Shown piece after piece: positions 3,040-13,297 of a DNA stretch of 20,500 nt (position 1 is its first letter; each line of letters begins with the position of its first letter). The notes below the pieces were generated by a model. The model did not search any database. It saw only the letters and a list, made by a program, of their open reading frames with translations, and was not told the origin of the DNA. The stretch covers positions 1 to 20,500 of IMG/VR virus record IMGVR_UViG_3300028084_000008, one strand, 5' to 3'. Made by a program: the position numbers and the translations under genes. The DNA comes from a virus.

Positions 3040-3259
3040 TAATTATCGTAAAAATCATCCTGGGACTTCAGGAATAATGGACTTCTTGGTTCCGAGCGAA
3101 AGAAGTCCACTGGAAAAGATACTATGTCCTTCATGTGGTCTAATGATGAAAAGAAAAGACTTTTTGCCGAGCGAGGAGATATGTAATGAATATTTAGATG
3201 TTCGTTTGATAGAAAATGAAGCAAGGTCGGAAGGTCATGAATATCAATTAGCAAACTAA
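3026..3259 (+). CDS. Small CPSCG-motif protein
   Basis: The 77-aa protein has one zinc-ribbon-like half site, CPSCG near residues 34-38, and an acidic C-terminal half (RLIENEARSEGHEYQL). The second pair of metal ligands is not obvious, so it may bind metal as a dimer or not at all. It starts within the end of the preceding gene and ends two bases before the next ATG. Function unknown. Confidence 0.6.
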   Translation: MIQDNNYRKNHPGTSGIMDFLVPSERSPLEKILCPSCGLMMKRKDFLPSEEICNEYLDVRLIENEARSEGHEYQLAN

Positions 3260-3260
3260 C

Positions 3261-3608
3261 ATGAAGAAAAAAATAAAGAAGATAAAGAAAAAGGAAAATA
3301 TCGTTACGATCTGTCGTAGTTTCTCTTATAAGTTAAATCTTGAAAATATAATCGGTGCGGCTGGTAGATATGAGAGTAGAGATTTTTTCGCAAGTCAGAG
3401 TTCGCAATGCAAGGAGAAGGACGCAGAGACAACGAGTGAGGCGCTATATCAGTTTTGCAAGAAAGATGTCATCAAGGCAGTTAATGCCTATATCAGTGAA
3501 GTTCGCGCGGAAAAGATGAAAAAGGAAACTGTAAAACAAAGAGCTATCGAAGTTAAACAAGAAAGTAAAGAACGCGCTATCGAAAGCGCAGCAGAAAATC
3601 AAGAATAA
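3261..3608 (+). CDS. Conserved-type phage protein, lysine-rich start
   Basis: The 115-aa protein begins with a strongly basic segment (KKKIKKIKKKENI), followed by a core with ICRSFSYKLNL and YESRDFF motifs and a helical C-terminal half with a FCKKDV segment. I recall similar proteins in phage replication and recombination regions, but none with a function I can name. It starts with ACTAACATG immediately after the previous TAA. Nucleic-acid binding is possible from its charge. Confidence 0.65.
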   Translation: MKKKIKKIKKKENIVTICRSFSYKLNLENIIGAAGRYESRDFFASQSSQCKEKDAETTSEALYQFCKKDVIKAVNAYISEVRAEKMKKETVKQRAIEVKQESKERAIESAAENQE

Positions 3609-3663
3609 AATCGAGGTAGTCCTTGAAATGGGAACAACGGCGAGATAAAATAACTACAAAATT

Positions 3664-4158
3664 ATGGCATATCAAAAACCTAAAATAGAAAGCAAGATCA
3701 TTAGCTTAAATGTTGATTGGGTTTCAGAGATAAAAGAAAATAAGAAAGGAAAGCCTTTTATTTCTGTAAAGTCAGGAAAGGATATGTTCTGGTATGTCGG
3801 AGATGAACGAATATTTCATTACTTTAAGAAGGGTGAAACGGTGCAATGTCTTGTGCAGGATGGAGAGTTTAAGTCAGTGATTGATGTTGTTGATGATTCA
3901 TTTGTCGCCGCGCGGGAAAAAAATGGAAGAGAAGAAAAAAGAGAAAATATATCAAGTCCTGAATTTTTTGTTACAAAGCATGACTGGGATTTATTGAATA
4001 GCAAATTAGATAAGATAGGTAAAATAGTAGTTGAGAATGGTTCCATGCTAACCGAACTAACCTTAGGTCTTGCGCTAGATCAAAATGGGAAGAAGGATGA
4101 GGAAGAAGTGCCAGACTTGGATAAAACAGCTTTTCCTCCAAAACAAAAAACATACTAA
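3664..4158 (+). CDS. Unknown protein with possible OB-like N-terminal domain
   Basis: The 164-aa protein opens with an alternating hydrophobic and charged region of about 80 residues (for example GKPFISVKSGKDMFWYVGD, then ETVQCLVQDGEFKSVIDV) that reads like a small beta-barrel. A charged linker and a helical segment follow, and it ends in an acidic stretch (KKDEEEVPDLDK) with a Pro-rich tip. This layout is reminiscent of single-strand DNA-binding proteins, but no diagnostic motif is present. A 55-bp gap with no gene precedes it. Confidence 0.6.
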   Translation: MAYQKPKIESKIISLNVDWVSEIKENKKGKPFISVKSGKDMFWYVGDERIFHYFKKGETVQCLVQDGEFKSVIDVVDDSFVAAREKNGREEKRENISSPEFFVTKHDWDLLNSKLDKIGKIVVENGSMLTELTLGLALDQNGKKDEEEVPDLDKTAFPPKQKTY

Positions 4159-5042: not shown

Positions 5043-5312
5043 ATGATAAATCCAATAAACGGTCATGTTTTAATAGAACCATTAAAGCATCAAACATATC
5101 TTCCGACCGAAAAAGGAACATATGAAGAAGTAGGTATTGTTTTAAAAAGACCATGGTATAAGTTCTGGTATCCAAACGAGGGTGATAAAGTGTACTACGA
5201 TTCATGGTTAGCCACCAAACATCCTACCGGAGAAGATGATAGTTATTTTTGGCTCGTTCCATTCAAAGATATTCATGCGGTCGAAAAGAAAGAAAAAGAT
5301 GGAGAGAAATAA
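5043..5312 (+). CDS. groES: GroES-like co-chaperonin
   Basis: This 89-aa protein follows the GroES pattern. NPINGHVLIEPL (residues 3-14) aligns with the first strand of GroES. TYEEVGIVL (26-34) aligns with the strand after the mobile loop, EGDKVYYDS (46-54) with the conserved GD(I/K)V segment, and FWLVPFKDIHAV (69-80) with the C-terminal LIxxxDILAIV strand. The mobile loop region (about 15-25) is short and lacks the usual GGIVL tripeptide, so partner specificity may differ. It would cap a GroEL ring; the GroEL homologue lies 565 bp downstream in the same orientation. T4 gp31 is a precedent for a divergent phage GroES. Confidence 0.75.
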   Translation: MINPINGHVLIEPLKHQTYLPTEKGTYEEVGIVLKRPWYKFWYPNEGDKVYYDSWLATKHPTGEDDSYFWLVPFKDIHAVEKKEKDGEK

Positions 5313-5314
5313 AA

Positions 5315-5554
5315 ATGGCATTTGAAACGAGGTATCAGAATAGTGTTTGCCGAGAACGCCGCGGTATTCTCCATAAATGGATTACGATTAAATATACAGA
5401 CAAGGGTGAATTGGTTCGATGCGAGAGGTGTGGAACGAAGATGCACTTAGCAAATGATATGCCACGCCACATACAAGCCAGTTTTCTTATACGTTCCCTG
5501 CTCAAATCAGATGATCCGCTATTCAAAAAGGAATATCCCACAATAACCACATGA
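5315..5554 (+). CDS. Small CxxC/His protein in chaperonin operon
   Basis: The chosen start, ATG 5315, lies two bases after the GroES-like stop; an upstream in-frame ATG at 5249 would overlap the GroES-like gene heavily. The 79-aa product contains CERCGTKMHLANDMPRH (about residues 36-52), a CxxC plus two histidines consistent with a small zinc finger, preceded by a basic beta-hairpin-like segment (RRGILHKWITIKY). It shares an ATGA overlap with the next gene. Function unknown. Confidence 0.65.
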   Translation: MAFETRYQNSVCRERRGILHKWITIKYTDKGELVRCERCGTKMHLANDMPRHIQASFLIRSLLKSDDPLFKKEYPTITT

Positions 5555-5880
5555 AAGACATAGAACTTGGTGCGATGACTTGGGCGCAGGATAATCCTTT
5601 TCGAGTGGTTCATGTCATCATAAGTCCGACGCAAGAGAGATTTTTTCTCAAAGGAGATATTTTCAAGAGTCCTGAATCATGGAAAGGAGGAGATATATGT
5701 ACGACTAATATAATGTTTTTTAAGGACGATATAAGAGTAAACAAAAAAGAAGGTATGGATAAACTGAGAAAAGTGGTCCGTGAGGGCAGACTCCAAGACC
5801 TAAAAGATGTTTACAAAATGGCGACGGAAACCGATGGAAGCAAAGTAAACTGGAAACCAATAATTTATAAAAACAAATGA
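5551..5880 (+). CDS. Unknown protein directly upstream of GroEL homologue
   Basis: The 109-aa protein has ATGA overlaps with both neighbours (5551-5554 and 5877-5880), so it is almost certainly translated with the GroEL homologue. It reads as a mixed alpha/beta protein, for example NPFRVVHVIISP then ERFFLKGDIF, with a basic helical C-terminal half (GMDKLRKVVREGRLQDLKDVYKM). I do not recognise a family. Its position suggests a client or a chaperonin-associated factor, but that is inference. Confidence 0.65.
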   Translation: MKDIELGAMTWAQDNPFRVVHVIISPTQERFFLKGDIFKSPESWKGGDICTTNIMFFKDDIRVNKKEGMDKLRKVVREGRLQDLKDVYKMATETDGSKVNWKPIIYKNK

Positions 5881-7463
5881 AAGATAACTTATTCACAGGT
5901 GATGAGGCGCGCGCAGGTTTAATGAACGGAATAAGAAAAGCAACAGAAGCGGTAGCTGGAACTCTCGGAACGTCGGGAAAAAATAGTCTTCTTCAAGCAT
6001 TTGCGTCGCCTTTTTTCTACCCCACAAATGACGGAATATCTATATTAGGCGCGATAAGATTCGCAGACCCGTTAGAAGAAATGGGAAGAAATATATTGGG
6101 CGAGGCAGTTTCCCGCGCAAATCGTGCTAACGGCGATGGTTCTTCAACAACGTGCGTTCTAACTTCTGCTATTTTAGAAGAAGGCATGAAACATCTTGAT
6201 GAGGCCTCTCCTATGGACATTCAGAAATCTCTTAATGAGTGTATTCCGGTCATCGAGGAATCACTGAAATCACAAAGAAAAGAAGTGGTTGACAAAGATG
6301 GTGTTATTGACTTTAAGTTGCTAGAACAAGTGGCTACAATTTCAAGCGAAGACCCTGCTATCGGTAAGATGATCGCAGAGATTTATTCTAAAATCGGCAA
6401 GGATGGAATCATAAATTGGGAATCATCAAAGGATAATAAGGATTCCTACACTATTGGAACGGGAATCAAGATAGACGGGGCTACCTATGCTTCCCGGTAT
6501 ATGTGCGACGCAGACGGAAATAACTTCACCTATCAAGCTACCATTGAAAATCCATTGGTTCTTCTCGCTTACTCAAAGATAACCGCACAATCGGAGATGG
6601 AAAAGTTGATAGGAGAACTCGTGGAAAAAGGAGTCAAAGACTTAGTTATCTTCTGTAACGAGATGGACGCACCAATTCTCAATAGTTTTATTATGGCTCG
6701 TGCGCCGCAAACGTTGGGTATCAGGTTCTTGGTGATAAAATTACCAACAGTCCTCAATGATTTATGGTGGGAAGATTTAGAGAAGGCATCGGGTGGCAGA
6801 ATCATAAGTCCGGCCTCTGGCATCAGAATGAAAGATGTAGGTATGCAGTTCCTGGGTAAGTTCGGAAAGATCACGGTGAATCGAGATGACACTTTCATTG
6901 ACGGGATAGCGGACCTATCGAATCATTTGATGGCATTGAAAGTGGACGGTTCGGAGGAGTCATTAGCGCGCGTCGCGCGGTTGAACACAAAGACTGCTCG
7001 TTATTACGTGGGAGCTAACTCGGAATCAACCTTAAGGCAGAAACGCGATAAGGTGGAGGATGCTATCAATTCAGCGTGGAGTGCGATGCAAAATGGGATT
7101 CTTCCGGGTGGTGGAATTGCGTTATTGAATGCCGCGAAAGAATTAGATGGAAAATTTATAGGAGATCAAATTCTCATGCAGGCGTTGTGTTCTCCGTGGA
7201 GGCAAATAGTCGAAAATAGTGGATACGAAACATCGAAAGTTCTCAAGATAGGTGGGGAGATGGGTTTCAATTCTAGGTCGGGTAAGGTGGAAAATATGTT
7301 CAATTCCGGAATCGTCGATAGTTTTGACGTTGTAATGGGCGCGGTAAAAAATGCAATCGGTGTTGCTTCTGGTATTTTGACCTGTGGAAGCGTCGTTCTC
7401 CTGCCTCGTAATGAAAACTCGGTCGATGAAGCGATCAAAGCAATAGTACAGAACCCTCAATAA
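5877..7463 (+). CDS. groEL: Phage-encoded GroEL (HSP60, group I chaperonin)
   Basis: The 528-aa protein is a full-length group I chaperonin, an ATP-driven ring that encloses and folds client proteins. ATPase residues fall at E. coli positions: D52 in PTNDGIS, D87 in NGDGSSTT, and D395 in VEDAINSAW (D398 in E. coli), with LPGGG at 409-413. In the apical domain, YASRYM aligns with the YLSPYF substrate- and GroES-binding segment, keeping Tyr, Ser and Tyr. The usual KAPGFGDRR loop is replaced by KLPTVLNDL, and the C-terminal Gly-Gly-Met tail is absent. Divergence throughout is clear, as in phage EL-type chaperonins. It starts in an ATGA overlap. Folding of virion proteins is the likely job. Confidence 0.92.
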   Translation: MKDNLFTGDEARAGLMNGIRKATEAVAGTLGTSGKNSLLQAFASPFFYPTNDGISILGAIRFADPLEEMGRNILGEAVSRANRANGDGSSTTCVLTSAILEEGMKHLDEASPMDIQKSLNECIPVIEESLKSQRKEVVDKDGVIDFKLLEQVATISSEDPAIGKMIAEIYSKIGKDGIINWESSKDNKDSYTIGTGIKIDGATYASRYMCDADGNNFTYQATIENPLVLLAYSKITAQSEMEKLIGELVEKGVKDLVIFCNEMDAPILNSFIMARAPQTLGIRFLVIKLPTVLNDLWWEDLEKASGGRIISPASGIRMKDVGMQFLGKFGKITVNRDDTFIDGIADLSNHLMALKVDGSEESLARVARLNTKTARYYVGANSESTLRQKRDKVEDAINSAWSAMQNGILPGGGIALLNAAKELDGKFIGDQILMQALCSPWRQIVENSGYETSKVLKIGGEMGFNSRSGKVENMFNSGIVDSFDVVMGAVKNAIGVASGILTCGSVVLLPRNENSVDEAIKAIVQNPQ

Positions 7464-7464
7464 A

Positions 7465-7752
7465 ATGAAAGATTTAGCGAAGGAATGGAAAGAATTTAAG
7501 AAATTTCGTATAAAAAAGCGAGAAGAAAATCTTAAATCGGCAGAATATCTTTTGGCACAAGAAGAACTGAGAAAGGCATTTGCATCACAACCTAAGTCGG
7601 TAGATATATCTCCTTATTCGTTTATAGTATGGGAAATGGCTGAAATGATATGGAAAATTGCATTAATGTCGAGAGATATGGCGGAAAGTAGAGGGATACC
7701 ACCCGAAAATGTCGAAGGATTACTTGATTGGCTTTCAAACGATAAAAAATGA
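7465..7752 (+). CDS. Small helical protein of unknown function
   Basis: This 95-aa ORF starts one base after the GroEL homologue's stop. The N-terminal 40 residues are a charged helix (KEWKEFKKFRIKKREENLK), and the rest includes a hydrophobic, Trp-containing segment (YSFIVWEMAEMIWKIALM) and a short GLLDWLSN tail. It is probably all-alpha. No known motif is visible. Its stop overlaps the next gene as ATGA. Confidence 0.6.
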   Translation: MKDLAKEWKEFKKFRIKKREENLKSAEYLLAQEELRKAFASQPKSVDISPYSFIVWEMAEMIWKIALMSRDMAESRGIPPENVEGLLDWLSNDKK

Positions 7753-7922
7753 TTTTCTTCCTAAAACGCTGTGAGAATTGCCACAAATTACGCTTCAAAT
7801 GGACAGTAAAGAAGCAGAAGATTTACGTTCAGCAGATAAAAGAAGTAGTAACGGGACGGCTGGCGACATGTGGGGGTTGCAGGAAAAAGGTCGAGGCGGC
7901 ACTAAGGGAACGGAATATATAA
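7749..7922 (+). CDS. 57-aa double-CxxC zinc-ribbon protein
   Basis: A short ORF starts at the ATGA overlap with the previous gene and ends in TAATG, sharing a base with the next ATG. The product has CENC at residues 8-11 and CGGC at 41-44, separated by 29 residues of basic beta-rich sequence, the layout of a small zinc ribbon. The C-terminus is a charged helix (RKKVEAALRERN). Overlaps on both sides and paired cysteines make this the real gene here rather than the longer frame starting at 7778. Confidence 0.7.
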   Translation: MIFFLKRCENCHKLRFKWTVKKQKIYVQQIKEVVTGRLATCGGCRKKVEAALRERNI

Positions 7923-8155
7923 TGTTTGATCAAAAACCCGAAGAAGCGATAAAAGAAGCAGAGGAAATGGCAGGTAAGAATTATGTGGATATGAAAGATG
8001 AAGAGTTTAACCCAATACATAATCCCGAAGCGATCAGTATAATCAAGCAGAAAGATGGTAATTTCAAGTTATGGGGTCAGCGATTCGGAAAGGTTATCGA
8101 GTTAAGAGCGGGAAAGCCTGAAGATGCACTGGTGGCGTTCTTGACGCACGAGTAA
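7922..8155 (+). CDS. Unknown 77-aa acidic protein
   Basis: The frame is open from ATG 7778, but the TAATG junction at 7920-7924 and the zinc-ribbon gene in another frame argue for a start at 7922. The product is acidic and helical at the N-terminus (QKPEEAIKEAEEMAG), then has a small beta-like region (GNFKLWGQRFGKVIELRAGKPED). It is the last gene before the strong promoter at 8160, so it may end a transcription unit. Function unknown. Confidence 0.6.
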   Translation: MFDQKPEEAIKEAEEMAGKNYVDMKDEEFNPIHNPEAISIIKQKDGNFKLWGQRFGKVIELRAGKPEDALVAFLTHE

Positions 8156-8479: not shown

Positions 8480-8561
8480 TAGAACAGATATTAAAAACGG
8501 CATGACACTATGCGTTCCATGCCACAAAAAGACTGATAACTATGCCGGTAGAGTTAAATGA
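8472..8561 (+). CDS. 29-aa HNH-like micro-ORF (LCVPCHKKTDNY)
   Basis: This ORF overlaps the previous gene by 8 bases and the terminase start by 20. Its product, including NGMTLCVPCHKKTDNYAG, matches the C-terminal half of HNH endonucleases (the LCxxCHxxT block). The N-terminal half with the first CxxC and catalytic His is absent from all frames upstream. It is either a remnant of an HNH gene, common beside terminases, or a minimal metal-binding peptide. Confidence 0.45.
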   Translation: MRNRTDIKNGMTLCVPCHKKTDNYAGRVK

Positions 8562-10248
8562 GTACACCGATAAGGAGTTGGTTGAGGCGACGGAATTATA
8601 TCCTGCGCTATGGGTGATTCAAAACGAGATTAAAAATGAAGTAGGTTTTCCTATTGAGTTTAAGAAGAGAAAGTTTCTCGTAGACATTTACAACGATTTA
8701 AGCCCACTCCAAGTAATCTTAAAAAGTCCGCAGGTAGGCATGACGGTTTGTAACGCCATTAAAAGTTTCTATGTAGCGAAGAAGTTACATCGCCAAATCA
8801 TATATACTTTGCCTACGATCAGCGATATTCAAGACATGGTAGGCGGTTCGTTTAATCGCATCATCGCTCAGAATCCTATTTTGAGTGCATGGGTGCGCGA
8901 TCACGATACCATTGAACAAAAATCGGTTGGAGATTCAATCATTTTCTATCGCGGCACTTTTACAGCAAAGCAAGCCATGATGATTCCATCGGGCTTGAAC
9001 ATACACGATGAGGTCGATATTTCTAACGCGGAAGTAATAACAGCTTATGAGAACAGGCTACAGGCGCAGGAAGATGGTGGTTGGCGCTGGTATTTCAGTC
9101 ATCCTTCCTTGGCTGGACATGGTGTCGACGTGTACTGGCAGAAGTCGGATAAAAAAGAATGGTTTATAAAATGTAAAAATTGCTATGAAGAACAAATCCT
9201 TAGTTGGCCGGAAAGTATCAATATGGGACGCGAATCGTATTGTTGTAAAAAGTGCGGAACAGATATTGAAGACGATATTCGCATTAATGGATGCTGGCGT
9301 AAAACCGCTATCGGAGATTTCAGTGGTTATCACATATCCCAACTCATGCTCTACAACAAGAGCGCGAAAGACATCATCAAAGCGTTCAACGACCCGCAAA
9401 AAGACAAGCAATACTTCTACAACTACGTCCTAGGGCTTCCGTATATCGGGAGTGAGGATAGAATTGAACCTAAGACCGTATTACAGAACTGTGTCGATGA
9501 AGTGAACGATTACTACGCCAAGGATGACCGAGTCATCATCGGTTGCGATACAGGGCATGGAATACATTACGTTCTAAGAAACAAGCAGGGAGTATTCTTA
9601 TATGGTCACGAAACTGAAATAACGGCGACAAAAGACCCTTACGACAAGATAGCTTCATTCCTTAATACGTTCGAGAAGTCGATCGCCGTGTTTGACCAAG
9701 GAGGCGATTTGATCGGTGTTCGTAAGCTGCAAGCCAAGTATCCCGGACGAGTGTTCCTCTGTTTCTATCGTAAAGATCGCAAGAGCAACGAGTATGTTGA
9801 ATGGGGCGTGGATGACGAGTTCGGCACCGTGAGGGTGGACAGAAACCGTCAGATGACCATTATGGTCGAGCAGATGAGGGATATTGGACGTTATCGGCTT
9901 AATGGTTCAAAGGAGGAATGGGCGGAGTTTGCTTCACACTTTGGGTATCTGTATCGGGAAGAAATTACGACCGACGCGAAACCCGGAAAAGATGATAGGA
10001 GTCTGTTAGGGACAGAGTACATTTGGAAACGTTCGGGGCCTGACCACTTCGCTCATGCTTTGCTCTATAGTGACATCGGTATGCAACACTTCAATCATTC
10101 ACAAGCTAAAATCTTCGGCACGAGAAACGCCATGTCCGGTATCCCGAAAGCGGAGGTGGTAGAAGCCAATGGCATGGTGAGGGCAAGAGGAGTTCCAAGC
10201 GCAGATATGGCGCAAGTAGTCTTGTTAAATTGGGATAGTGCAAAATGA
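8542..10248 (+). CDS. terL: Terminase large subunit, lambda GpA type
   Basis: The 568-aa protein is the ATP-driven motor and nuclease that packages DNA into the prohead. Residues 61-68 (KSPQVGMT) form the deviant Walker A box with the lysine first, as in lambda gpA. IHDEVD (154-159) is the Walker B/DE motif. An inserted zinc knuckle uses C211, C214, C235 and C238. The C-terminal nuclease domain shows GCDTGHG (D336), VFDQGGD (D385) and DHFAHALLYSD near 505, the acidic triad of the RNase H-like fold. Length and order fit GpA-like terminases. The stop overlaps the next start as ATGA. Confidence 0.92.
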   Translation: MPVELNEYTDKELVEATELYPALWVIQNEIKNEVGFPIEFKKRKFLVDIYNDLSPLQVILKSPQVGMTVCNAIKSFYVAKKLHRQIIYTLPTISDIQDMVGGSFNRIIAQNPILSAWVRDHDTIEQKSVGDSIIFYRGTFTAKQAMMIPSGLNIHDEVDISNAEVITAYENRLQAQEDGGWRWYFSHPSLAGHGVDVYWQKSDKKEWFIKCKNCYEEQILSWPESINMGRESYCCKKCGTDIEDDIRINGCWRKTAIGDFSGYHISQLMLYNKSAKDIIKAFNDPQKDKQYFYNYVLGLPYIGSEDRIEPKTVLQNCVDEVNDYYAKDDRVIIGCDTGHGIHYVLRNKQGVFLYGHETEITATKDPYDKIASFLNTFEKSIAVFDQGGDLIGVRKLQAKYPGRVFLCFYRKDRKSNEYVEWGVDDEFGTVRVDRNRQMTIMVEQMRDIGRYRLNGSKEEWAEFASHFGYLYREEITTDAKPGKDDRSLLGTEYIWKRSGPDHFAHALLYSDIGMQHFNHSQAKIFGTRNAMSGIPKAEVVEANGMVRARGVPSADMAQVVLLNWDSAK

Positions 10249-11099: not shown

Positions 11100-13109
11100 A
11101 TGCCTGATTTTGATAGTTTTGTCCAAAATCTGGTTGGTGTCGATGACCTTATTTCCAGCGACACGAACAAGATTCGCGTAAAAGGTGATTTCGCTCCAGA
11201 AGGCAAGGTAAGCGAGGAAATTGACGTACTCGAATTACCAATGTCGGATGAGAAACTCTTGAAACTCCGCAACGAGTGGGAGGGTGCTTATGCTCCATAT
11301 GAATCTGCGGTGGCTATACCAACAAGACAGAGAAACCTAAGAAGTTATCTCGGACGAAACGGAATGGGTGAAGTTCCTGGCGAGGAAGAAATCGTCGCGG
11401 CTAATTTACAGTTCGAGTCAGAAGAGACCTTCTTACCTGCGGCTACGTCACAAGACCCCAGCCCTTTCGTATACGGTGCTAATGACCAACAGATCAACGC
11501 TCTCGCCCAGAAAGTTCAGACGATGCTCCAGTTTCACGCTCAACAGCTTCTTCTCCGCAGGAAGATAGCAGTTATGGTGCGCCAGTGGTCAATCAATCAT
11601 CTTGGAGTTCTAAAGCCCGGCTGGAATGAAGACATCAAAGATGTAGCTATCGAGAATAGAAAGATACAGGACTTCATATTTGACCCGAATGGATATGTTG
11701 ATGTTTATGGTGATTTCAGTTCATGGCTCGGAGAGAGGATTTATGTAACCGCAGAGAAGCTCTGCGATCTATTCCCGAAGAAGACGGCGGACATTATCTT
11801 AGAAGTCGACGGTAAGATGGGAACGAAAGTTTGTTACACCGAATGGTGGAACGATGACTATTGTTTCTCAACGTTCAAGCGTATTGTTTTGGACAAGCAT
11901 AAGAACGAGTATTTCAATTACGAGAAGCAGGAAGACCAACAGCCCGACCCTTTGACGGGTCAAGTAAAGCCGGTCAAGCGGAATCATTTTGCTATTCCTA
12001 AGAAGCCTTATATCTTCTTGTCGGTCTTTAGTTTACAGGAGAGACCTCATGATATCACGGGTTTGATAGAACAGAGCATCCCAGATCAAAGGAGACTTAG
12101 TAATCGAGCAGACCAGATAAATAACAACGTCAGCCAAGGAAACAACGGCTTGTTGTTTAGCGAGGACAATTTTAATCAGGAAACAGCTAAACAGGGATAT
12201 GACGCTTTGACCAAGAAAGGTCATGGCGGTGTTTTGGTTCCAAAGTCAGAAAATGGCAATGGCGCGGAAGGTTCAATCATACGATTGGACGCACCAAATT
12301 TTCCACAGGCGGCGTTCGATGAGGTTGAACTCTTGGAGAATCACATTAAGAGTCGGTGGGGTACGCAGGGAATTTCAAGTCAGCCAGCAAGGCCGGACGA
12401 AACGGCACGAGGTATGACATTGAATCAGCAGAGAGACACTTCTCGGATAGGTGGTGGAATCGGAGACGTAATCGAGCAGTCGGTCGCTAAGTCTTGTTTC
12501 GATTGGCTCGTTCAGCTTTATTGCGTGTTCTACGATGAAAGACATTTCGGCGCGGTAATGGGTTCGGGAGAGGCTACGCAGTACGTTGAATTAGAAGCGC
12601 AAGAAATAGATCAGCAGTTGGTCGTGGGTGTAACTGCCAATTCAATGCAACCGAAAGACCAGATTTCGGAAGGCAATCAAGCGATGAGTTTGTACTCAGC
12701 TGGTGCTATTGGCCCGAAGACATTGCTTGAAACCTTGAACTTTGCTAACCCAGATGATGCTTCAGAAGACGGAGTTTTCTGGACATATAGTCAGAAATCG
12801 GACGGCGGTATGAGTTACATAACATTGAACTTCCCCCAACTCGCCCAGAAACTTCAACAGATGCAAGCCCAACAGCAACAGGCGGCGCAACAGCAACAGG
12901 CTCAACAAGTACAGCAGGAGGCACAATCAGGTCAGCAACAGATTCAACAAAAACAAGCACAGGGTCAGGCACAATTACAGCAGGGTGAGGCAAGTCATCG
13001 GCAGAAAATGAGGCAAGAACAGGAAAGCCACGCCCAGAAGCTAGCGTTATCCAAAGAGGTGGCTAGTGCGGCGATGCAAGCTAAGACCGCAGGAACACAA
13101 CCAAAATGA
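11100..13109 (+). CDS. Portal protein (head-tail connector)
   Basis: The 669-aa protein is the right size and place (after terminase, before scaffold and capsid) for the portal, the dodecameric ring through which DNA enters and leaves. Supporting segments include the wing/stem-like region with SRWGTQGISSQ, ETARGMTLNQQRDTSRI and a long helical stem around residues 450-480. The last 110 residues are very rich in Gln and Ala (560-640) and probably form an extended helical barrel or coiled coil, as in P22-like portals. Direct motif support is modest, so the call leans on context. The stop overlaps the next gene as ATGA. Confidence 0.8.
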   Translation: MPDFDSFVQNLVGVDDLISSDTNKIRVKGDFAPEGKVSEEIDVLELPMSDEKLLKLRNEWEGAYAPYESAVAIPTRQRNLRSYLGRNGMGEVPGEEEIVAANLQFESEETFLPAATSQDPSPFVYGANDQQINALAQKVQTMLQFHAQQLLLRRKIAVMVRQWSINHLGVLKPGWNEDIKDVAIENRKIQDFIFDPNGYVDVYGDFSSWLGERIYVTAEKLCDLFPKKTADIILEVDGKMGTKVCYTEWWNDDYCFSTFKRIVLDKHKNEYFNYEKQEDQQPDPLTGQVKPVKRNHFAIPKKPYIFLSVFSLQERPHDITGLIEQSIPDQRRLSNRADQINNNVSQGNNGLLFSEDNFNQETAKQGYDALTKKGHGGVLVPKSENGNGAEGSIIRLDAPNFPQAAFDEVELLENHIKSRWGTQGISSQPARPDETARGMTLNQQRDTSRIGGGIGDVIEQSVAKSCFDWLVQLYCVFYDERHFGAVMGSGEATQYVELEAQEIDQQLVVGVTANSMQPKDQISEGNQAMSLYSAGAIGPKTLLETLNFANPDDASEDGVFWTYSQKSDGGMSYITLNFPQLAQKLQQMQAQQQQAAQQQQAQQVQQEAQSGQQQIQQKQAQGQAQLQQGEASHRQKMRQEQESHAQKLALSKEVASAAMQAKTAGTQPK

Positions 13110-13297
13110 GAAATTTAGAGGAGAAAATACAGCGTGATATGGAGTCAACGGCGATAGACATGGAGGTAGCCAGTATCAAGGTATACGAGAGGTTGATAGA
13201 AACATCGGAAAGTCCTCACGATCGAAGAATCTATGAGGAGATACTACAGGATGAGAAGGATCATGAGCGAAAGGTAAAAGCGATAAGGGGTCGATAA
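13106..13297 (+). CDS. 63-aa helical protein with ferritin-like DExxH motif
   Basis: This ORF starts in the portal's stop codon (ATGA). It encodes two charged helices; the second contains EEILQDEKDHERK, resembling the ExxDExxH metal-binding helix of ferritin-like and rubrerythrin-type proteins, and the first has EVASIKVYERLIE. At 63 residues it is only half of a four-helix bundle, so a dimer would be needed. The motif may instead be chance in a charged helix. It ends RGR with the GGTCGATAA element across its stop. Confidence 0.55.
   Translation: MRNLEEKIQRDMESTAIDMEVASIKVYERLIETSESPHDRRIYEEILQDEKDHERKVKAIRGR

Follow-up and report, generated by a model that had tools for sequence, protein, structure and literature searches.

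The window under study, which is the entire 20,500-base IMG/VR virus record, carries genes for a GroES-like and a GroEL-like protein in one tight gene run. Chaperonins of group I are usually regarded as machines with two components, and the locus raises the question of whether the phage makes a chaperonin of its own and, if so, which of the genes packed around the pair belong to it. The relevant features are the following:

5043-5312, plus strand: ES, GroES/Cpn10-like lid protein of 89 aa, whose mobile loop is shortened (T18-Y-L-P-T-E)
5315-5554, plus strand: ZN, 79-aa zinc protein (C12, H20, C36, C39), the probable third part of the module
5551-5880, plus strand: 109-aa protein with ATGA coupling at both ends, regarded as a passenger that entered between ZN and EL
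5877-7463, plus strand: EL, predicted Cpn60/GroEL-like ATPase ring subunit of 528 aa
7119-7256, plus strand: variable equatorial segment of EL (residues ~415-460; boundaries approximate)
7465-7752, plus strand: lineage-specific 95-aa protein between EL and Zn2, found in 2 of 35 contigs
7749-7922, plus strand: Zn2, a second zinc-ribbon protein of 57 aa (CxxC...CxxC), found in 32 of 35 contigs and always downstream of EL
7922-8155, plus strand: conserved 77-aa protein, found in 26 of 35 contigs
8542-10248, plus strand: terminase large subunit (TerL; PHROG 675 match, 1.4e-82), a landmark downstream of the module

ZN was taken to start with the ATG at 5315 rather than with the TTG that the ORF listing gives at 5249. 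ATGA overlaps join ZN to the 109-aa gene (5551-5554) and the latter to EL (5877-5880), and the portal and major capsid genes follow the terminase large subunit gene, downstream of the chaperonin run. The overlapping gene run beside packaging genes that an earlier note on this DNA had described is thus present. A tRNA search of the 20,500-base window found none. Two repeat-bearing proteins are encoded elsewhere in the window: a 364-aa protein (1743-2837) with many near-identical 'NATVQSVYG'-type repeats and a match to the YdcK beta-solenoid (4.8e-20), and a 179-aa ORF (11-550) whose N-terminus is a run of 'GNSGY/D' five-residue repeats.

Viral contigs were scanned with EL, ES, ZN and TerL and then dereplicated, and the resulting sample contains 46 lineage contigs with a complete EL, 37 of which have at least 900 bases upstream. 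As judged from its sequence, EL is unmistakably a full-length member of the Cpn60/GroEL family: it matches Pfam Cpn60_TCP1 (PF00118) at 1.3e-31, with a domain that spans profile positions 3-486 of 490 and scores 110 bits against a curated cut-off of 34, and it also matches PHROG 5725 (GroEL) at 6e-90 and GroEL entries of the PDB at about 1e-56 to 1e-66. Residues were compared with those of E. coli GroEL, whose sequence was checked against the PDB. D52, D87 and D395 are intact in the window EL, the latter being the equivalent of E. coli D398; in E. coli numbering, D52, D87 and D398 are kept in 46/46 dereplicated module ELs, and D495 in 42/46. Pfam, PHROG and the residue alignment therefore bear out the initial description of a full-length GroEL homologue with these three aspartates.

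Other positions have changed throughout the lineage. K51 is replaced by N in 45 of the 46 ELs and G375 by K in 39. The GGM tail is absent from the window EL, as first noticed, and was found in none of the ten module EL C-termini inspected. The apical groove is largely recognizable, with Y203 kept in 41/46, a mostly aromatic residue at position 199 and mostly hydrophobic ones at 259 and 263. Helix H, which in GroEL is part of the lid-binding groove, is altered in the 46 module ELs, where L234 is usually E, N or D; this change would count against capping of EL by ES.

One explanation for such a pair is that the phage has recently captured an essentially host-like groESL operon. Certain other phage GroELs (Vibrio 2.275, Va1 and SJC03) do nest inside cellular clades, and they lend some credit to this explanation. 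However, the best match to EL among the cellular GroELs found here reaches at most ~33% identity. A scan of genome contigs gave cellular GroELs only. In a maximum-likelihood tree, which was built by a quick method, has several long branches and relies on a cellular sample leaning to Bacteroidota, the module ELs cluster together (support 94; 100 in a 24-row core), outside the cellular group. Because of this low cellular identity and of the separate viral clade of EL, recent host capture was rejected; we consider it hardly credible. The phylogeny that the earlier note had proposed as a check thus indicates that the pair is not a recent copy of host genes.

The relationship of ES to GroES was examined with sequence, profile and structure comparisons. 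The window ES alone falls under the Cpn10 (PF00166) threshold (E 0.005; 17.2 bits, with a cut-off of 21.1), and searches of the PDB by sequence, with a single sequence or with a profile, gave zero matches. Cpn10 matches were found in 8 of 15 members of the ES family, the best at 1.7e-6; the cut-off is exceeded in the L015 and L017 records, and L241 scores 46 bits. When the ES family profile was compared with that of cellular GroES, a match with 92.5% probability (E 5e-7) was obtained. The AlphaFold2 model of ES (mean pLDDT 76) shows a GroES fold, and its best structural matches are Cpn10 structures, up to Z 9.5 (1wnr), with T4 gp31 at 8.1. In the fold list (VIA), the best 16 entries are all Cpn10, T4 gp31 or the ClpP-Cpn10 complex (Z 7.6-9.5), and the next family scores 5.5. 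Altogether, the Cpn10 matches of the family, the profile-profile match and the predicted fold indicate that ES is a real GroES relative. Structure prediction for 5043-5312 therefore agrees with the fold first proposed, and the claim that a genuine GroES/GroEL pair is present holds for both partners.

The mobile loop of ES is about 6 residues shorter; the profile alignment places the gap just before 'TYLP', which falls at the end of the hydrophobic tripeptide through which GroES binds GroEL. Near relatives share the loop motif T-Y/F/L-L/I-P/A, including those whose ES is otherwise only ~36% identical. Hence, the view that the GGIVL of the loop is missing stands as regards the shortening, but the element is not simply missing.

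The presence of both partners does not necessarily mean that they act on each other. EL might work alone without encapsulation, like the chaperonin of phage phiEL, or as single rings, while ES would serve the host GroEL in the style of T4 gp31. Salt-bridge residues of EL are altered (R197 to A in 35/46 module ELs; D83 to K or R in 40/46), as reported for phiEL (PMC7185714), the E434-bearing loop is deleted in 46/46, the ring-ring segment is variable and helix H is changed, all of which would suit a lone chaperonin. The strict linkage of ES to EL, the joint divergence of both proteins and the fact that the phiEL record has no recognised GroES point in the opposite direction, and we regard separate action of ES and EL as improbable.

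The variable segment itself shows an unusual pattern of divergence. Residues ~415-460 of EL correspond to residues ~420-475 of E. coli GroEL, the ring-ring interface region. The window EL and that of L006 are 30% identical in this segment and 80-96% in all other regions; compared with the EL of L003, identity is 89% in the segment and 48% at the N-terminus. L196 and L020 likewise share 37% identity in the segment and 73-93% elsewhere. Rather than simple drift, the segment appears to have been exchanged between relatives, and a guess is that it sets the specificity of ring pairing. That the interface is an exchangeable, type-specific segment which blocks ring mixing with other phages or with the host is less certain than the rather unlikely three-part chaperonin considered below. 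It is plausible that the pair does not mix with host chaperonins, and the loss of R197 and D83, the changes in helix H and the apparent exchange of the interface would fit a non-mixing pair.

Which of the neighbouring genes accompany the pair was examined in the related contigs. ES, ZN and EL occur together in all 37 contigs with enough upstream sequence, in the order ES-ZN-EL in 36 and EL-ES-ZN in one; a second EL-ES-ZN contig, L231, has too short an upstream sequence to enter this count. In the 35 contigs where TerL is present as well, EL and ZN were detected in 35 and ES in 34, the exception being L217, in which a Cpn10-like ORF was found by eye and Pfam gave no match. Most immediate neighbours, in contrast with the 34-35 contigs of ES, ZN and EL, are present in 2-10 of the 35: an 88-aa gene appears in 8, and genes of 95, 99, 109, 136 and 164 aa in 2 or 3. 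No match to the ZN model was found at 80 cellular groEL loci or in the surroundings of 16 groEL genes from other phages, and queries with ES and ZN gave nothing significant in a cultured-phage collection. Contigs L212, L216, L217, L231, L234 and L241 were included in the extended models, and their E-values there are circular; independent ZN matches for L231, L234 and L241 range from 4e-6 to 4e-9.

The 109-aa gene was found in 2 of 35 related contigs, in one of which, L007, it lies downstream of EL; the window and a near-identical contig are the only ones in which it stands between ZN and EL. Its ATGA coupling to the GroEL homologue at 5877-5880 is as first described, but the suggestion that its product might belong to the machine was rejected because of this scarcity and of its inconstant position; the conserved partner is the 79-aa ZN, which the note had not singled out. 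In L004, an HNH-type gene (7295-8011) occupies the same slot between ZN and EL.

A terminase relative with 35% identity is encoded in L245 (7866-9353), and ES, ZN and EL are all absent from the 7.8 kb upstream; this contig may lie at the limit of the module's distribution. Other terminase genes in the sample are interrupted. Those of L007 (12364-13221) and L182 (2994-3851) contain an in-frame intein of 286 aa, inside which an HNH-type endonuclease ORF of 189-191 aa is found in another frame (12612-13178 and 3242-3814, respectively). Substitutions at intein codon positions 1, 2 and 3 amount to 18, 15 and 56 outside the overlap (97 codons) and to 27, 58 and 44 inside it (189 codons), the shift from position 3 to position 2 that one would expect from selection on the endonuclease frame. 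The terminase gene of L236 (1076-3481) has a different in-frame insertion, which is apparently an intein located elsewhere in the gene.

The C-H-C-C pattern of ZN is as expected of a zinc site: Cys occupies its three positions in 41/41 proteins, and His is found in 40/41, with Cys in the exception. The predicted fold of ZN (pLDDT 82) has a best match of Z 2.6 to solved structures, and neither the PDB, searched by sequence and fold, nor BFVD yielded a convincing match. Sequence matches are weak and below cut-off: they involve zinc ribbons of the nucleic-acid type and PHROG 2670, a group of phage proteins of unknown function that is weakly matched by 12 of 15 ZN proteins (best 7.7e-5).

These weak matches and the failure to find a related fold admit the explanation that ES and EL work together while ZN is an unrelated zinc-ribbon regulator, linked to them only by its position in the late block. 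The link may be only positional because adjacent genes are co-inherited, and Zn2, a second zinc-ribbon gene, is likewise conserved downstream; the good conservation of both Zn2 and the 77-aa gene was counted against ZN as a special partner. Several observations are harder to accommodate if ZN is a mere regulator. ZN is present in 35/35 contigs, while most other neighbours are not kept, and it moves with ES when the order changes to EL-ES-ZN. In L005 and L008, ES and ZN are 32-37% identical to those of the window, compared with 68% for EL and 82-83% for TerL, a pattern suggesting that ES and ZN, but not EL and TerL, were jointly replaced in that lineage. Furthermore, the pairwise divergences of ES, ZN and EL covary when the effects of TerL and of the third gene are taken out (partial rank correlations 0.35-0.50; permutation p 0.001), part of which could come from physical linkage alone. 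Regulation by ZN is possible though doubtful, and not much less likely than a role of ZN in helping the machine. Zn2, in turn, is a possible fourth member of the module.

The interpretation that we favour is a chaperonin of the phage's own, in which an EL ring and an ES lid fold phage proteins with ZN as a dedicated accessory. Sequence, predicted fold and gene linkage are the basis of the whole mechanism, and from them we infer ring assembly, lid action, the clients and any role of ZN. EL would assemble as an ATP-hydrolysing ring of the group I type, and ES would cap it, docking in the EL apical groove through the shortened loop T-Y/F-L-P. The chamber would then fold phage proteins without host GroE, most likely the head and packaging proteins encoded just downstream, and ZN might be an adaptor that brings clients or a helper of ES or EL. 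The part that concerns ES and EL is, on its own, one that we hold with considerable confidence. With ZN added as a dedicated accessory, the proposal becomes tentative, its probability falling slightly short of even odds. A stricter version, a three-part chaperonin in which ZN is an obligate co-chaperone or client adaptor, seems rather unlikely.

With ZN retained in a viral lineage as strictly as EL and ES, the possibility of a third chaperonin component can be put to a defined test. In addition, the lineage supplies a set of natural GroEL variants that have lost allosteric salt bridges and appear to have swapped the interfaces between rings; these could show what cooperation within a double ring is for. 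The lineage, with genomes of roughly 40 kb, carries a whole folding machine beside its packaging genes.

Comparison with known systems shows a mixture of shared and divergent traits. The module resembles bacterial GroEL/GroES in the order and length of the Cpn60 domain, in D52, D87 and D398, in the GroES fold of ES and in the adjacency of the genes, and EL largely keeps Y203 and the hydrophobic groove residues 259 and 263. Unlike bacterial GroEL, however, EL (~30% identity) has undergone the changes K51 to N, G375 to K, R197 to A and D83 to K/R and has lost the E434 loop, and the module differs further in the absence of a GGM tail, in the shorter mobile loop and in the presence of ZN between ES and EL.

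Phage T4 is not known to encode a GroEL; its gp31 acts on the host GroEL. ES is likewise phage-encoded and has a GroES fold (VIA Z 8.1 with gp31), but, unlike that co-chaperonin, it is linked to an adjacent EL of its own.

The chaperonin gp146 of phage phiEL is, like EL, a phage-encoded, diverged GroEL; its salt bridges R197-E386 and D83-K327 are reported not to be conserved (PMC7185714), and they are not kept in EL either. It has also been reported that gp146 does not interact with E. coli GroES (PMC7185714). The two chaperonins are very distant in sequence, and the phiEL record has no Cpn10 match, whereas the module has ES; a lone GroEL of the phiEL type does not describe a lineage with ES in 37/37 contigs.

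The notion that phages rarely carry both partners was not sustained: in a hand-picked set of 16 phage records with a GroEL, 10 contain a Cpn10 that exceeds the Pfam cut-off, and the existence of phages with both GroES and GroEL has been reported (PMC7185714). An eleventh record, cthkR962, has a Cpn10 just under the cut-off beside its GroEL. Flavobacterium phages immuto and elemo, Cellulophaga phage phi40:1 and cthkR962 resemble the module in encoding both partners, adjacent or nearly so; they differ in that ZN was not found in the stretches examined there and in that their ELs are at most ~30% identical. A gene located between Cpn10 and GroEL in phi40:1 was considered as a candidate ZN and rejected, both by eye and with the ZN model. 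In the tree, the EL of cthkR962 branches closest to the module ELs, as their sister (support 90), and its ES-EL pair lies upstream of the terminase. A phage GroEL/GroES pair is therefore already known; what is new is the fixed three-gene module, ES-ZN-EL.
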